The translations under genes and the position numbers were made by a program. Under the pieces are notes generated by a model. It worked only from the letters and a program-made list of their open reading frames with translations. It ran no database searches and was not told the DNA's origin. 64,000 bases of DNA from Lachnospiraceae bacterium (lineage in GTDB: Bacteria > Bacillota > Clostridia > Lachnospirales > Lachnospiraceae), in assembly GCA_013316825.1 (NCBI GenBank), contig WSLY01000004.1, forward strand, positions 1-64,000. The letters are read 5' to 3'. Within the stretch, counting starts at the first letter, position 1, and every line of letters begins with the position of its first letter. This document shows positions 4,384-34,048 of the stretch, in pieces.

Positions 4384-4456
4384 GGAGCACTAGCTCAGTC
4401 GGTAGAGCACCTGACTTTTAATCAGGTTGTCGGGGGTTCGAATCCCCCGTGCTTCA
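4384..4456 (+). tRNA. tRNA-Lys (TTT)
   Basis: GGAGCAC/GTGCTTC acceptor, CTGACTTTTAATCAG anticodon arm, GGGGGTTCGAATCCCCC T-arm. Confidence 0.95.
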
Positions 4457-4642: not shown

Positions 4643-5803
4643 CTAAGAAATTTTTTCACGGCTGCAGCCACGCTCCATGCCTGGCCGTATGCCGGACAGT
4701 TTGGCTTTCGTATCCTCCCTTTCTTCATCGAGCTGCGCATACACCCGCAGTATCATCTTTTCATCAGCATGCCCCATCAGTTCAACCGCTTTCTTCAGAG
4801 TGATTCCCGAATAGTATAAAATGGTCGCGTAGTTATACCGGAATACGCGGGAAGTAAGTCCGGATATCGGCTCCGGCACGCTGTCTGTGGCAACTGCGGC
4901 ATTCAGCGCTTTTACGATTCGCTTCCAGACGACGTAAAAATATGATTTGCTGTAGGGCTGTCCCTTGTTGGCAAACAAAAAAGCATTGTCAGCCTCAGAA
5001 AGCTCTTTTTTGATGTGCAGGGTATAAAACCTTACCTCCTCGATTAAAAAGGCGGGAATGGGTATCCGGCGGAAGCCTGAGGGGGATTTTGGTATATTTT
5101 TAAGGACGGGCTGGTTATTCTGGAAGATAATTACATGGTGGATAACCAGCTCCTCTGCCGGCAGGTCTATATCCTGCACCTGCAGGGCAAGAAGTTCTTC
5201 CAGACGCAGCCCGCAGCCGAAGAGCAGCATGACAAGCAAATGTTCCTGCGGCGGCAGGACGGCGCGGTTCAGCGCCTGTTCTTCCAGAGAGGTAAGGATT
5301 CGGCGTTTTGGTGGGGTATACTTGGGCATTTCTACCCGGTGCCACGGGGTATCCTGTATGTAATGGTCCTCCACGGCAGAGGAAAGTATCTGCTTTAAGA
5401 CAATCTTAATTTGCTGGCAGGTGCGCGGGTGGTCGGCATGCTCATTGATGAGCGCCTGTATGTCCGTCCGTTTAATGTCCGGCAGCAGCCATGTACCGAA
5501 CTGCGGAAGGAGGTACGTGTCCAGTATGGTGCGGTACATGCGCTGCGTGTTGTATTCCCTTGTGGACTTGTAGAGGGACACGAAGGTTTCTGCATATTCC
5601 TCAAAGGTGGTTTTCTTTCCAGCAATGTATTTCCCTGTTTTAATCTGGGCTTTCATGGCGTCTACTTTTTCTTCCAATTCCCTGCTGGTGCTGCCATACA
5701 TGGGTATCCTGACAGGTCTGCCGTAATCATCATATTCCCCTGTGTTTACCAGCGTGTAATAGCGTCCGTCTTTCCTTGGTTTGTAGCGGTTTTTTCTAGG
5801 CAT
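4643..5803 (-). CDS. Site-specific tyrosine recombinase (phage integrase)
   Basis: SAM-like core-binding domain and catalytic motifs (GLRLEELLAL, MGHADEKMILRVYAQ); RBS aggagg before MPRKNRY. Confidence 0.95.
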   Translation of the reverse strand: MPRKNRYKPRKDGRYYTLVNTGEYDDYGRPVRIPMYGSTSRELEEKVDAMKAQIKTGKYIAGKKTTFEEYAETFVSLYKSTREYNTQRMYRTILDTYLLPQFGTWLLPDIKRTDIQALINEHADHPRTCQQIKIVLKQILSSAVEDHYIQDTPWHRVEMPKYTPPKRRILTSLEEQALNRAVLPPQEHLLVMLLFGCGLRLEELLALQVQDIDLPAEELVIHHVIIFQNNQPVLKNIPKSPSGFRRIPIPAFLIEEVRFYTLHIKKELSEADNAFLFANKGQPYSKSYFYVVWKRIVKALNAAVATDSVPEPISGLTSRVFRYNYATILYYSGITLKKAVELMGHADEKMILRVYAQLDEEREDTKAKLSGIRPGMERGCSREKIS

Positions 5804-5956
5804 TGTATCGTCCTCCTGTGGGTACCATTCCGGCGACATTACCGCAATGGTGTAATTTTGGGCATAAAAATGCCCGGTAAATGCTTGCGGCTTACCGGGA
5901 AAGATGATACAATATGCTTGTGTTTGGCGTGTATCATCTTTTGGTGTACCGCTTTG

Positions 5957-6714: not shown

Positions 6715-7344
6715 TTAAAACTTACCCCGTAGTTCAACTACTTTCCCTATAATTTTAACAGGTTTAGAAGATATATCCTCGTTGCTGAAAAACATTGGGG
6801 CATAGGCTGGGTTATTAGACACCAGTTCTATTCCGTCCCGATATTTCCTGAGTCGCTTGCAGGTAGCGTCGTCACCGTTTACCATGGCAATTACGATATC
6901 ACCAGATTCTGCGTCCTCTTGCTGCCGAACGATAACCACATCGCCCTCGCACATACGGGGTTCCATGGAATTGCCTTTTATCTGTAGTCCAAAGTATGTA
7001 CCAGTGGAAGCCATTTCCTGCGTGATTTCCTCAGTATCAATTACCTCTTCTACTGCTTCTATGGGAATTCCAGCGGCTACACGTCCAAGAACATTAATAA
7101 TAACACCTTGCTTTGTAATTCTATTAGGCTTGTCTTCTAATAAATCAGATTTGTTCACCCCAAAATAATCAGCTAGTAATTGTATTTTTCCTATTCGTGG
7201 AAGTTTTTGTCCTGTACACCAACTTGATACGGTGGAAGAACCTAGGTTTAAATCATTCATGAGGTCCATCTGATTTTTATTATTTAATTCCATGTAATAT
7301 TTCAATTTTTTTGCAAAGATAGCTTTATATCTTTCATCTGACAT
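6715..7344 (-). CDS. CI-like repressor (XRE HTH + S24/LexA-like peptidase)
   Basis: N-terminal HTH (NQMDLMNDLNLGSSTVSSWCTG) and S24 signature (LQIKGNSMEPRMCEGDVVIV). Confidence 0.93.
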   Translation of the reverse strand: MSDERYKAIFAKKLKYYMELNNKNQMDLMNDLNLGSSTVSSWCTGQKLPRIGKIQLLADYFGVNKSDLLEDKPNRITKQGVIINVLGRVAAGIPIEAVEEVIDTEEITQEMASTGTYFGLQIKGNSMEPRMCEGDVVIVRQQEDAESGDIVIAMVNGDDATCKRLRKYRDGIELVSNNPAYAPMFFSNEDISSKPVKIIGKVVELRGKF

Positions 7345-7493
7345 CAATAAAATCCTCCTAGTAGTTTGTATGATAGCACCAAAAATGAGATTTGACAACT
7401 ATTTTCTTTAAAATTCTCACTTTTGGTATTGACATTACACTGAAAGTGAGATAATATTCAATCAACAGCAGATGAAAAGAAAGGAGAAAAAGT
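7345..7493. promoter_or_regulatory. Divergent lysogeny control region
   Basis: Rightward TTGACA (7429)-17-TAATAT; leftward TTGTCA-17-TATCAT; operator-like AAA(A/G)TGAGA sites overlapping both promoters. Confidence 0.7.
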
Positions 7494-7703
7494 ATGAATG
7501 AATTAAAGATTTCTTTGGCAGCAGCAAGAGTAAATGCAAGAATGACACAAAGCCAAGTGGCAGAAAAAATGCACGTAGGAAAGCAAACAGTTGTTAGATG
7601 GGAAAATGGAAAAGCTGAACCGAAGACATCACAGGCAATAGAGTTATGTAAACTATATAATATACCGCTTGATAATATTTTTTTGCCTATAATTCCCACT
7701 TAA
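7494..7703 (+). CDS. Cro-like XRE-family regulator
   Basis: HTH ARMTQSQVAEKMHVGKQTVVRWENGKAEP; divergent from CI. Confidence 0.9.
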   Translation: MNELKISLAAARVNARMTQSQVAEKMHVGKQTVVRWENGKAEPKTSQAIELCKLYNIPLDNIFLPIIPT

Positions 7704-7890: not shown

Positions 7891-8093
7891 TAAAGGTGGA
7901 CAAGAAGTGTGCTTATTTGGGCTGTCAAGAAAAAGGAGAATTCTGGGACGATGTGGAAACTTCCCCAGGTGCTATCCGTAAAAAACAGGTTTGCAGAGTA
8001 CATCTGGGGAAATTAACAGGAAATATTATGCTAACTGGAAAATTCAGTTTACCGTATATGTTTTCCAAGGAATCTGGGCAGGGTGAAGATTAG
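7887..8093 (+). CDS. Hypothetical phage protein
   Basis: Follows previous ORF with overlapping start (GTG). Confidence 0.5.
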   Translation: MIKVDKKCAYLGCQEKGEFWDDVETSPGAIRKKQVCRVHLGKLTGNIMLTGKFSLPYMFSKESGQGED

Positions 8094-8301
8094 CTAAAAA
8101 TTTTACGATGTCGGTTCTTCCATGGTACTTAAAATCCCCGGAGGAATCCTGTGAAGCAAGAATTATCGGAATGTTACCAAAAACAGGGATAAAACTGTTT
8201 CTCACGGATTCGCGCTGAGAACTTGTAAGCACATGAGGTTTTACAACGGCAATGGCAAATGTCACACCCTGTTCTTTTATTAAGGCTCCATCAAAGCGCA
8301 T
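8044..8301 (-). CDS. Conserved hypothetical protein (85 aa, MRFDGALIKEQGVTFAI...)
   Basis: RBS aaaggagggg upstream of ATG on - strand; upstream TTGCTT-17-TATAAT promoter; resembles a widespread small Firmicutes family recalled from memory. Confidence 0.8.
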   Translation of the reverse strand: MRFDGALIKEQGVTFAIAVVKPHVLTSSQRESVRNSFIPVFGNIPIILASQDSSGDFKYHGRTDIVKFLANLHPAQIPWKTYTVN

Positions 8302-8416
8302 AGTGAAATCCCCTCCTTTCTTATGCACTTGGCTGCTGCAACAGCCTGTAGCGACATTATAAGGGAAAGGGATTACAAAAGCAATAGCCGCATGAAGATG
8401 TATTACAAAAGCGATT

Positions 8417-8521
8417 CTGCCATACTTTCTGCTCGGCACACAGGTGCCGCAGTACATTCCTATTTGCCCAAAGGCGCGCAGATACCCCCTTAGTCTGCGT
8501 GCCGCGCAGAGGGCATGGCAG
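8417..8521 (+). ncRNA. Structured element copy 1 (candidate cis-regulatory RNA or palindromic repeat)
   Basis: Outer stem CTGCCAT..TTCTGC/GCAGAGGGCATGGCAG; hairpin CGGCAC-ACAG-GTGCCG; hairpin GGCGCGCAGA-loop-TCTGCGTGCC. Confidence 0.6.
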
Positions 8522-8544: not shown

Positions 8545-8733
8545 ATGGAATATCCAAAACCAATAATGACTATTTCCGAGTTACAGGAAATGGGCTATCC
8601 GAGGGAATATCTGCTGAGGGCGTGTCACAGCAAACACGCAGGGAAACTGTGCATACGCACATCACGCAGGGGTAAGTTTCTGATAAAAACGGAAGTGTTT
8701 GAATCTCTGCAGAACAGGGGGTGCCTGAGGTAA
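8545..8733 (+). CDS. Small phage DNA-binding-like protein
   Basis: MEYPKPIMTISELQEMGYPREYLLRACHS...; RBS aggaagggg. Confidence 0.65.
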   Translation: MEYPKPIMTISELQEMGYPREYLLRACHSKHAGKLCIRTSRRGKFLIKTEVFESLQNRGCLR

Positions 8734-10367: not shown

Positions 10368-10402
10368 TCCTCACCGGCAGGAGACGGGCGGCATATCTGC
10401 CG

Positions 10403-10508
10403 CCATGCCTTCCGCGCGGCGCACAGGCGCCGTACACACATACATTTTCCATTTATGAATAAGCGGGCGCAGGTACTCCCTATCCTGCGTGCCGCGCGGA
10501 GGGCATGG
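10403..10508 (+). ncRNA. Structured element copy 2
   Basis: Outer stem CCATGCCTTCCGCGCGGC/GCCGCGCGGAGGGCATGG; hairpin CGGCGC-ACAG-GCGCCG; hairpin GCGCAGG-TACTCCCTAT-CCTGCGT. Confidence 0.6.
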
Positions 10509-10535
10509 AAACAAAACAAGAAGGAGGCATAAAAA

Positions 10536-10925
10536 TTGGAAGAAATCAGGAAAACAGTTGAAGGCACCTGCAGGTGGACGCAGGGCTGGCTGGAGGAAAA
10601 CAGTGTGCGGCTTGACGCCATTGAAGTGTCATGCGTGCTGCTTTCCCTTTCTGCGCTTGTGTCTGCGGCCGGGATAAAACAGGAAATTCCGGAACGCACG
10701 CTGGAGCCGGAGCTGCAGGAGCCGGAGGCACGGCAGGAAAAGGAAGAGCCGCCGAAAAAAAAGCGGAAAATTGACGCGGGGAAAATCCGTGCGCTGCGCA
10801 AAGCAAACTGGACGGTGAAAGCGATCGCGGACGAAATGCAGTGCACCGTTGCCACGGTATACAGGGCGCTCGGGAAAGTGGATGCGGGAAATGAGGCAGA
10901 CAGTGATGACGATGGTACAGCGTGA
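10536..10925 (+). CDS. HTH-containing phage protein
   Basis: TTG start with RBS aaggagg; C-terminal HTH (GKIRALRKANWTVKAIADEMQCTVATVYRALGKV). Confidence 0.75.
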   Translation: MEEIRKTVEGTCRWTQGWLEENSVRLDAIEVSCVLLSLSALVSAAGIKQEIPERTLEPELQEPEARQEKEEPPKKKRKIDAGKIRALRKANWTVKAIADEMQCTVATVYRALGKVDAGNEADSDDDGTA

Positions 10926-29225: not shown

Positions 29226-31022
29226 ATGCAGGCACAGTCAAACGCGTACAGGGAAGCACTGTATGAATCCTATGTTGTACAGAGCACCATTACAGGAAAC
29301 ATAACAGCGCCAACGGGTGAAATATATGACTTAACTGATAATGATATTATTCCTGGCTCCCTGAACAAAAATAATAAATGCGTCAACGGCAGCAGTTTTG
29401 AGCTGGGTTCCGTGTTTCAGGGGGAGCTTAACGTGACGCTGCGGAAAACACTGGATAGGTACCGGATTAACGGCGGCAGCATTACCTTCACGGAACGCAG
29501 ATATCTAAAGGACGGGACGGAAGAGGACGTAAAAATCGGTAAATTTTATATTGCATCTGCTGACAGAAAAGGAAAACTGACAACGATAAAAGCAGTCGAC
29601 CGGATGGATTTACTGGAAATAGATGTATCGGATAACATGGTCGGTACGCCCTATGAACTGCTTTTAATGCTTTCCGAAAAGTGCGGCGTGGAGCTGGCAC
29701 AGACAGAAGAGGAGATTATGAAACTGCCGAACGGGGCTGAAATGTTTTCTGTTTATGTGGACACAACGGGTACATACCGTGATATGGCTGCCTATCTTGG
29801 CATGGTGACAGGCACCTTTGTCACGATAAACGTGGACGATAAGCTGGAACTTAGGCAATATGCCATCGCGGACTGTCTGGAAGTACCCTCCGGAAAAAGA
29901 AGCAGCGGAAGCACGGTAATAGCGGATTATGTGACCTATTACAGAGGTGTCACGGCGAGGTTTATTGCAGAAAACAATTATGCCGCGTATACCTATGAGG
30001 ATAACACCATCACAGGCGGTTTAATGCTTGATTTGGGCGATATCCCGATAGTGAGAGGGCTGCCACAGAGGAAACATGCCATACTGGAATCTTTGTTTTC
30101 CGTGATAAGGCAGATAGTATATATCCCTGCCGAGTTTACGCTGGTGACAAGTGACGCAGCGCTGGAACTGGGTGACAGGATTGGAATAGACGGGGAAAAT
30201 GCAAGCACATATGTCACAAGCTATAGCTGGATATACCATGGGTCAGAAAAAATAAAAGGTGTCGGTGATAACCCGAGACTTAAGGCGGCAGGTGATAAAA
30301 ACACAAAACGTCTGGCAAACATGGAAGAGGAGATAAAGGCAAAAGACATTGTTGTCCATTCCTATACCAATGCCTCCGCCCTCACCATAGGAGCGGAAGA
30401 GCAGACCATCATCACCTTTAACTTTGCCACCATAGCAGACACGCACCCTGTATTCCTTGCCACCGTGCCCCTTTCCATGGACAGGGACGGGAACCTGGTG
30501 CTGCGGTATTACCTTGACGGCGTTTTTGGGGACGTGCTCAGGAAGTACCTGCAGCGGGGAGAGCATTTTGTGACCCTGGGCAGCCATTTTACCGTGGAAA
30601 AAGACAAAAGGGTCATGCTGCAGGTCACGGCCGCCACGGAATACCATGACAGCGACACAAGGCGGCAGGCAGCCGCCCTGAAGGCGCTGGAAAACTTTGC
30701 GGGGACAGGGGAATATGTCCCCGTTTCCGCCGATAAAAGCATTCCGGCAGCAGGGATTGCCCGCGGGACCATACGGGCGGTGCTCTATGCCCAGGGCATG
30801 GCGGGCGCGGCGTCATGGGACGGCACCATAACGGTGTCGGAAGCCATTGCAGAAATGGGGCTTCCCATGCTTCCCCCGGCAGGCACGGCGGCAGTGCCCA
30901 GCGTGGCGCATGTGCCGCTGAAACGGCAGGGCATAAGCGCGCCCGTGCCGGAAATGGGGCTTAAGGGGCTTTCCCTGCCTGGCATATCCGCAGGGGTATC
31001 CTGCACCACGGAAACCGGATAA
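29226..31022 (+). CDS. Phage minor tail protein
   Basis: Size, position. Confidence 0.75.
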   Translation: MQAQSNAYREALYESYVVQSTITGNITAPTGEIYDLTDNDIIPGSLNKNNKCVNGSSFELGSVFQGELNVTLRKTLDRYRINGGSITFTERRYLKDGTEEDVKIGKFYIASADRKGKLTTIKAVDRMDLLEIDVSDNMVGTPYELLLMLSEKCGVELAQTEEEIMKLPNGAEMFSVYVDTTGTYRDMAAYLGMVTGTFVTINVDDKLELRQYAIADCLEVPSGKRSSGSTVIADYVTYYRGVTARFIAENNYAAYTYEDNTITGGLMLDLGDIPIVRGLPQRKHAILESLFSVIRQIVYIPAEFTLVTSDAALELGDRIGIDGENASTYVTSYSWIYHGSEKIKGVGDNPRLKAAGDKNTKRLANMEEEIKAKDIVVHSYTNASALTIGAEEQTIITFNFATIADTHPVFLATVPLSMDRDGNLVLRYYLDGVFGDVLRKYLQRGEHFVTLGSHFTVEKDKRVMLQVTAATEYHDSDTRRQAAALKALENFAGTGEYVPVSADKSIPAAGIARGTIRAVLYAQGMAGAASWDGTITVSEAIAEMGLPMLPPAGTAAVPSVAHVPLKRQGISAPVPEMGLKGLSLPGISAGVSCTTETG

Positions 31023-33177: not shown

Positions 33178-34048
33178 ACCGGCAGACTATAAGCAGACAG
33201 ACGGAAAATGGGGGAATCTCAAGTATGCCGTCCAGGGCGAGGCAAGCACCATAAAGAGCGCAGGCTGCGGCCCCACGGCGATGGCAGACGTGCTGTCCGC
33301 CATCGAAAGCACGTACACAGACCCTGTTACCTGCGCGGCGTGGGCGCTGCAGCACGGGTACAAGGCAAAGGGCGGCGGCAGCTATTACACCTATCCGGCA
33401 GCGCAGGGGGCGGAGTACGGCGTCACGGTGCGCCGCCTTAATGTGGCAAACATATACGGCAGTGCAGGCTCCGGCGTCCATGCGGAGGCACTTGCGGCAC
33501 TGCAGGCCGGAAACTGGCTTATCGCCTGCATGGGAAAAGGGCTGTGGACAAGCGCGGGACATTACATCGTGGCATACGGGTATAAAGGCGGCATGGTGTA
33601 CATCAATGACCCCGCCAGCAGCAGCGCGGCAAGGGCATGCAGTAAATGGGAGCTGTTTAGGGCGCAGGTAAAATATTACTGGGTCGTGGAAGTGCCGGAA
33701 AACATAAAGGCGGGCTATATAAATACGAGCGGTGATTACCGCCTGCAGGACTTTGTGCGGGAAGTGCAGATGTGCACAGGAGCGAAAATTGATGGAAAGG
33801 CAGGAACGGAAACCCTGTCAAAAAGCGTAACGGTGAGCCGCGGAAAGAACAGCCGCCATCACGTTGTACTGCCTCTGCAGAAAAGGCTCCGGTATCATGG
33901 ATTTTATGAGGGCGGGCTGGACGGTATAGCAGGCCCCCAGTTTGAATCTGCCGTGAACCGGTACCAGACGCAGGTGCTGGGGTATGGAAAGGCGGACGGG
34001 GAGGTAACGGCCGGAAGGACGATGTGGCGGTCCCTGTTAGGATTATAA
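33170..34048 (+). CDS. Endolysin: C39-like peptidase plus C-terminal peptidoglycan-binding domain
   Basis: AGCGPTAMADVLS catalytic Cys, GHYIVAYGY His, QKRLRYHGFYEGGLDGIAGPQFESAVNRYQ. Confidence 0.88.
   Translation: MIKPADYKQTDGKWGNLKYAVQGEASTIKSAGCGPTAMADVLSAIESTYTDPVTCAAWALQHGYKAKGGGSYYTYPAAQGAEYGVTVRRLNVANIYGSAGSGVHAEALAALQAGNWLIACMGKGLWTSAGHYIVAYGYKGGMVYINDPASSSAARACSKWELFRAQVKYYWVVEVPENIKAGYINTSGDYRLQDFVREVQMCTGAKIDGKAGTETLSKSVTVSRGKNSRHHVVLPLQKRLRYHGFYEGGLDGIAGPQFESAVNRYQTQVLGYGKADGEVTAGRTMWRSLLGL

Follow-up and report, generated by a model that had tools for sequence, protein, structure and literature searches.

A conserved three-stem structured element, probably a cis-acting RNA, at cistron boundaries in early operons of temperate phages of one Lachnospiraceae genus

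An integrated phage in the genome of a Lachnospiraceae bacterium carries two copies of a strongly folding element on its plus strand (8417-8521 and 10400-10511), raising the questions of whether their shape is under selection, whether they act as RNA or as DNA, and what they might do for the phage. Positions refer to the window, the whole 64-kb stretch of DNA that was analysed (Table 1). The host genome (2.37-Mb assembly, ~73% complete) contains 2 copies of the element, both in this prophage, and the only gathering-level Rfam matches in the window were tRNAs. The region closely upstream of copy 1 holds two further features. A direct repeat, ATTACAAAAGC, occurs twice (~8373-8383 and ~8404-8414, ~31 nt apart) and is a possible operator or promoter feature. 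A likely small gene with a good SD lies opposite the early operon at 8044-8301 on the minus strand; small minus-strand ORFs were also seen near the equivalent place upstream of the element in G117 and G019.

Table 1. Features of the prophage locus and parts of the two element copies (fold z scores are relative to dinucleotide shuffles)
Feature	Position	Strand	Remarks
tRNA	4384-4456		
Integrase-like gene	4643-5839	-	
CI-like repressor gene	6715-7398	-	
Cro-like gene	7494-7703		early operon begins after this gene
Copy 1, P1 to P1	8420-8518	+	covariance-model match 98.7 bits; fold z -6.2
Copy 1 P1 5' arm	8420-8432	+	partner 8506-8518
Copy 1 P2 hairpin, CGGCAC-ACAG-GTGCCG	8434-8449	+	perfect hairpin
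Copy 1 single-stranded linker, pyrimidine motif (TTCCTATTT)	8450-8472	+	CCCCTTT-type motif
Copy 1 P3 hairpin, GGCGCGCAGA-loop-TCTGCGTGCC	8473-8503	+	P3 covariation
Copy 1 P1 3' arm, conserved GAGGGCAYGG	8506-8518	+	
First gene after copy 1, HTH/excisionase-like small protein (MEYPKPIMTISELQ...)	8545-8733	+	SD between; start +24 nt
Copy 2, P1 to P1	10403-10508	+	covariance-model match 122.1 bits; fold z -6.5
Copy 2 P1 5' arm	10403-10415	+	partner 10496-10508
Copy 2 P2 hairpin, CGGCGC-ACAG-GCGCCG	10417-10432	+	
Copy 2 single-stranded linker (TTTTCCATTTATG)	10433-10464	+	
Copy 2 P3 hairpin, GGGCGCAGG-loop-CCTGCGTGCC	10465-10493	+	one bulge
Copy 2 P1 3' arm, GCGGAGGGCATGG	10496-10508	+	
First gene after copy 2, C-terminal resolvase-type HTH	10536-10925	+	Pfam HTH_7, 3.6e-05; SD AAGGAGG; start +25 nt

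The fold common to the family spans ~100 nt. A closing stem of 13 pairs (P1) encloses a hairpin flush with it (P2), a pyrimidine linker and a second hairpin (P3). An earlier note on this DNA had proposed three stems in copy 1, together with compensatory differences from copy 2 in each of them; the stems lie where that note put them and form in the predicted fold, and the differences are present in the sequence and are upheld across the wider family. No dinucleotide shuffle folded as well as either copy. When 5112 windows of 110 nt were folded along both strands of the 64 kb at a step of 25, that of copy 2 took ranks 1 and 2, one per strand. Further very strongly folding stretches (~-50 to -56 kcal/mol per 110 nt) were observed at 30626-30901 and 33226-33401. 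The P2 hairpin formed in each of the 15 members tested and beat shuffles at p <= 0.05 in 14 of them. The same note regarded the loops ACAG and TACYCCCT as conserved, which holds among close relatives only: more distant members have P2 loops of ATGA, ATGT, GTGCA, GTACA, GCATA or GAAA, the last in the two most divergent of the 16 members, and P3 loops vary freely. Within P1, GAGGG in the 3' arm is nearly invariant across the family, while the facing 5' arm alternates between C and T.

Homologues were collected with a covariance model built from 4 sequences (both copies and both of those in G027), then rebuilt from 14 and finally from 16. A model necessarily matches the sequences from which it was built, so that the independent finds are those that preceded each rebuild. 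Among 138 genomes of the host genus, 12 gave strong matches (E of 8e-17 or better), amounting to 16 alignable members: 2 each in the window genome, G027, G017 and G019 (there on two contigs), and 1 each in G112, G120, G023, G116, G089, G117, G037 and G014. The related phage in G027 has both copies at equivalent places, and an exact-pattern scan of genome contigs yielded two more copies on a MAG contig, L154. In G089 a second, highly divergent element follows ~13 nt after the first (L068:8259-8397, minus strand); its P1 arms read GATCACGC.../...GCGTGATC, and it has an apparent additional hairpin in the linker. Copy b of G017 adjoins what by eye is an IS110-like transposase gene (L063:8076-9284) with ribosomal protein genes beyond, surroundings that represent either a prophage remnant or a contig joint.

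Covariance searches of ~400 genomes each, across the family and across the order, returned weak matches and nothing convincing; four that were considered (L034, L035, L092 and L094) lie in unrelated surrounding sequence. Two weak matches within the genus (L085 and L086) were judged to be chance on reading. No member was found in Blautia phage Montmirail, Roseburia phage Shimadzu or one faecal phage contig, and DNA similarity searches against phage and plasmid records gave no relevant match, only short chance matches in Acinetobacter phages. Since the family- and order-wide searches gave weak matches only, the element is, as far as these stricter-filter searches reach, restricted to phages of one Lachnospiraceae genus.

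The covariance model thus supplied further homologues, and these bear out by covariation the earlier proposal of selection on structure. In alignment A6, 90.2% of cells were paired, and 18 of 30 pairs were changed on both sides (8 of 13 in P1 and 6 of 10 in P3). The covariation score was reached by 0 of 500 shuffles, and shifting the partners by 1-3 columns abolished the signal. Because shuffles ignore relatedness, we also counted co-changing branches on the tree and compared the counts with substitutions placed randomly by branch length in 2000 draws. P1 and P3 clearly exceeded expectation (10.0 versus 3.6 and 9.2 versus 3.8, respectively; 0/2000 draws and p < 5e-4 for each). P2 covariation alone was not significant on this count (3.0 versus 2.8 expected). 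P2 slips in register in some members, and a count of covariation by columns suffers as a result. Taken together, these results demonstrate that the shape of the element is retained as its sequence diverges, and that it is a conserved structured element consisting of P1, P2, P3 and a pyrimidine linker.

Conserved pairing might also reflect a palindrome that acts as DNA, whether a replication, recombination or protein-binding site or a mobile palindrome, whose arms stay complementary through selection at the DNA level or through template-switch correction. The element is indeed near-palindromic, and the model also matches its reverse strand. G112 moreover retains a 40-nt collapsed remnant at the copy 2 position (L064:8722-8761, minus strand), which seems to have arisen by deletion between short direct repeats within the palindrome. 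Against a DNA-level palindrome, G-U outnumbered A-C mismatches by 50:16 at helix positions read on the gene-sense strand, and by 36:11 in representatives below 75% identity. This excess favours RNA, since roughly equal counts would be expected from template-switch correction or from a DNA constraint that treats both strands alike; as related cells are not independent, it constitutes support rather than proof. Members are also co-oriented with the neighbouring early genes and fit tightly between stop and start codons, which likewise counts against a DNA palindrome. The earlier note had named a match to a known palindromic repeat or transposon family among the findings that would overturn its reading. 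REP- or MITE-type dispersal is absent: the host genome has 2 copies, relatives have one or two strong matches each, matches in other genera are unconvincing, and there is no sign of spread beyond the phages. We consider a DNA-level palindrome distinctly unlikely, and the element is probably a real cis-acting RNA.

We next turn to its surroundings. An upstream ORF stops 7-36 nt short of the element in about 10 of the 16 members, and an SD with a start codon lies within 25 nt downstream in about 10 of 16; for G112, G017a, G017b and G027b the next start was found 46-145 nt away. Copy 1 had been described as sitting closely upstream of an SD and ATG, in agreement with the spacing given in Table 1. 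Downstream products are unrelated to one another and include excisionase-like, XRE and resolvase-type HTH proteins as well as small membrane-protein-like ORFs; that of the first gene after copy 1 matches PHROG 36464, a group of unknown function (6.5e-06). As the downstream genes are not homologous, an operon-level role fits as well as a local one. CI/Cro-like genes stand beside the element in most loci. Among 13 loci no protein family was common to all carriers; the most frequent neighbours were generic HTH proteins (10/13) and an RNase H-like protein (7/13). A shared partner protein was accordingly rejected, only the generic HTH proteins being at all common. The element does not look like an intrinsic terminator, as P1 is followed by A/G-rich sequence and the SD with no U-tract, and it is absent from the list of terminators. 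These findings place the element at cistron boundaries in the early operons of temperate phages; its position suggests that it is expressed early.

The one conserved single-stranded feature, which the earlier note did not mention, is the pyrimidine linker between P2 and P3. A CCCCUUU-type motif with at most one mismatch occurs in 9 of 12 family linkers, compared to 4-6 in shuffles. The linker is similar to the 16S anti-SD (z 4.3), and pairing of linkers with a generic SD is stronger than that of their shuffles (-7.4 versus -5.8; 0/200). Pairing of a linker with its own downstream SD, however, was no better than with the SDs of other members (p 0.54), and pairing with the ribosome-binding site is for that reason not specifically supported.

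Based on the position of the element and its anti-SD-like linker, we tentatively favour, at somewhat less than even confidence, a post-transcriptional cis-element that would gate or process the early message at its cistron boundary. Such an element would act in cis within the early mRNA, at the boundary where it is located. The rigid duplex of P1 and P3 would hold the upstream cistron apart from the ribosome-binding site that follows, and the CCCCUUU linker could pair either with this site or with GAGGG in P1. Translation or stability of the downstream message might then depend on how the element is folded, on a factor bound to it, or on cleavage of the duplex by a nuclease. The more distant starts after the members G112, G017a, G017b and G027b weigh against such a role.

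A more specific form of processing is suggested by early phage mRNAs. In those of T7 and of Bacillus phage SP82, RNase III sites are stable intercistronic stems closely upstream of early-gene starts, and the present element likewise forms a stem between cistrons near the downstream start codon. It might therefore be a site for RNase III processing and stabilisation of mRNA ends, a long duplex cut at cistron boundaries, with the substrate being either P1 alone or P1 plus an extension as a rod of ~23 pairs. In the rod fold, the 5' strand of P2 pairs with the 3' strand of P3 instead of with its own hairpin partner, which offers a near-continuous duplex of 20+ pairs; that duplex, the position closely upstream of start codons and the unrelated downstream genes are all consistent with RNase III cleavage. 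Retention of the P2 hairpin and the CCCCUUU linker would be left unexplained, however, and we know of no conserved second hairpin or pyrimidine linker at the T7 and SP82 sites. Covariation of the rod was apparent against shuffles but was lost on the tree-aware null (3.6 versus 2.1 expected for the extension, p 0.12). We regard RNase III processing as unlikely.

For most members the rod and the three-way junction differ little in energy, usually by no more than 3 kcal/mol but by as much as 6.6 in G117. The element may therefore be bistable, the 5' strand of P2 residing in one or the other fold and switching expression of the early operon under the influence of a factor or of the kinetics of folding. 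Independent covariation of the rod extension is not significant, and we think such a switch rather unlikely.

An alternative to post-transcriptional control at the boundary is antitermination. The putRNA of phage HK022 (putL/putR) is a structured cis RNA of ~70 nt with two stem-loops that functions independently of protein and is present in two copies in early transcripts (PMC9378689). By analogy, the element would load onto RNA polymerase, for a put-type RNA at the beta' zinc-binding domain, and allow read-through of terminators, in the manner of put or nut sites. Like putRNA, it is a structured RNA in what its position indicates are early transcripts of a temperate phage, with one or two copies per phage; the lack of a phage protein common to all carriers and of any tie to the downstream gene would likewise fit. 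In contrast to putRNA, which has no closing stem and is found once per early operon, the present element is a closed three-way junction, and both of its copies lie in one operon rather than in two divergent operons. Intrinsic terminators are scarce downstream: over up to 9 kb of sense strand, 9 of 13 loci had none, and this scarcity weakens a Put-like role. We also compared the linker with boxA sequences, those of the host being taken from rrn leaders; a boxA/nut reading was rejected at z 1.0 against host rrn boxA and z 2.0 against E. coli boxA. Put-like or nut-like antitermination is, in our estimation, fairly improbable.

Its compact, stable fold, probable early expression (as judged from position) and independence from its neighbours would also suit a small trans-acting phage RNA, possibly antisense, decoy or anti-defence, processed from the early transcript. 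Neither a promoter nor a terminator of its own was identified, however, and a role in trans would not account for the position next to ribosome-binding sites; we view it as very improbable.

Does the element belong to a known family? The earlier note could not match it to a named RNA, and comparison with Rfam 15 agrees: no family scored above its gathering cut-off, and at E <= 5 only low-scoring animal RNA families and similar appeared, far below their cut-offs. Gram-positive bacteria have cis RNAs close to the beginning of long operons, among them the pLS20 conAn2 RNA and the EAR (epsC) RNA (PMC8955417, PMC2864571), which the present element resembles in its placement. Whereas conAn2 works with the protein ConAn1 and has >20 terminators inside its operon (PMC8955417), the present element has no shared partner protein, few intrinsic terminators downstream and no Rfam match. 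HMP_4078, a phage-associated palindromic candidate structured RNA from human microbiomes (PMC8040213), is similarly a palindromic structured element near phage genes, but is found mostly in Bacteroidetes, unlike the present element. The present element might nevertheless be listed under a number among the 3161 microbiome candidates of the same study (PMC8040213).

The structured RNAs of gut-phage early operons are poorly catalogued. The present element folds clearly, its covariance model is supported and its compact members sit at well-defined cistron boundaries, so that reporter assays can test its role directly. Should it turn out to be an antiterminator or a switch, phages of Lachnospiraceae, a dominant gut family, would have a further control device, one that needs no protein.
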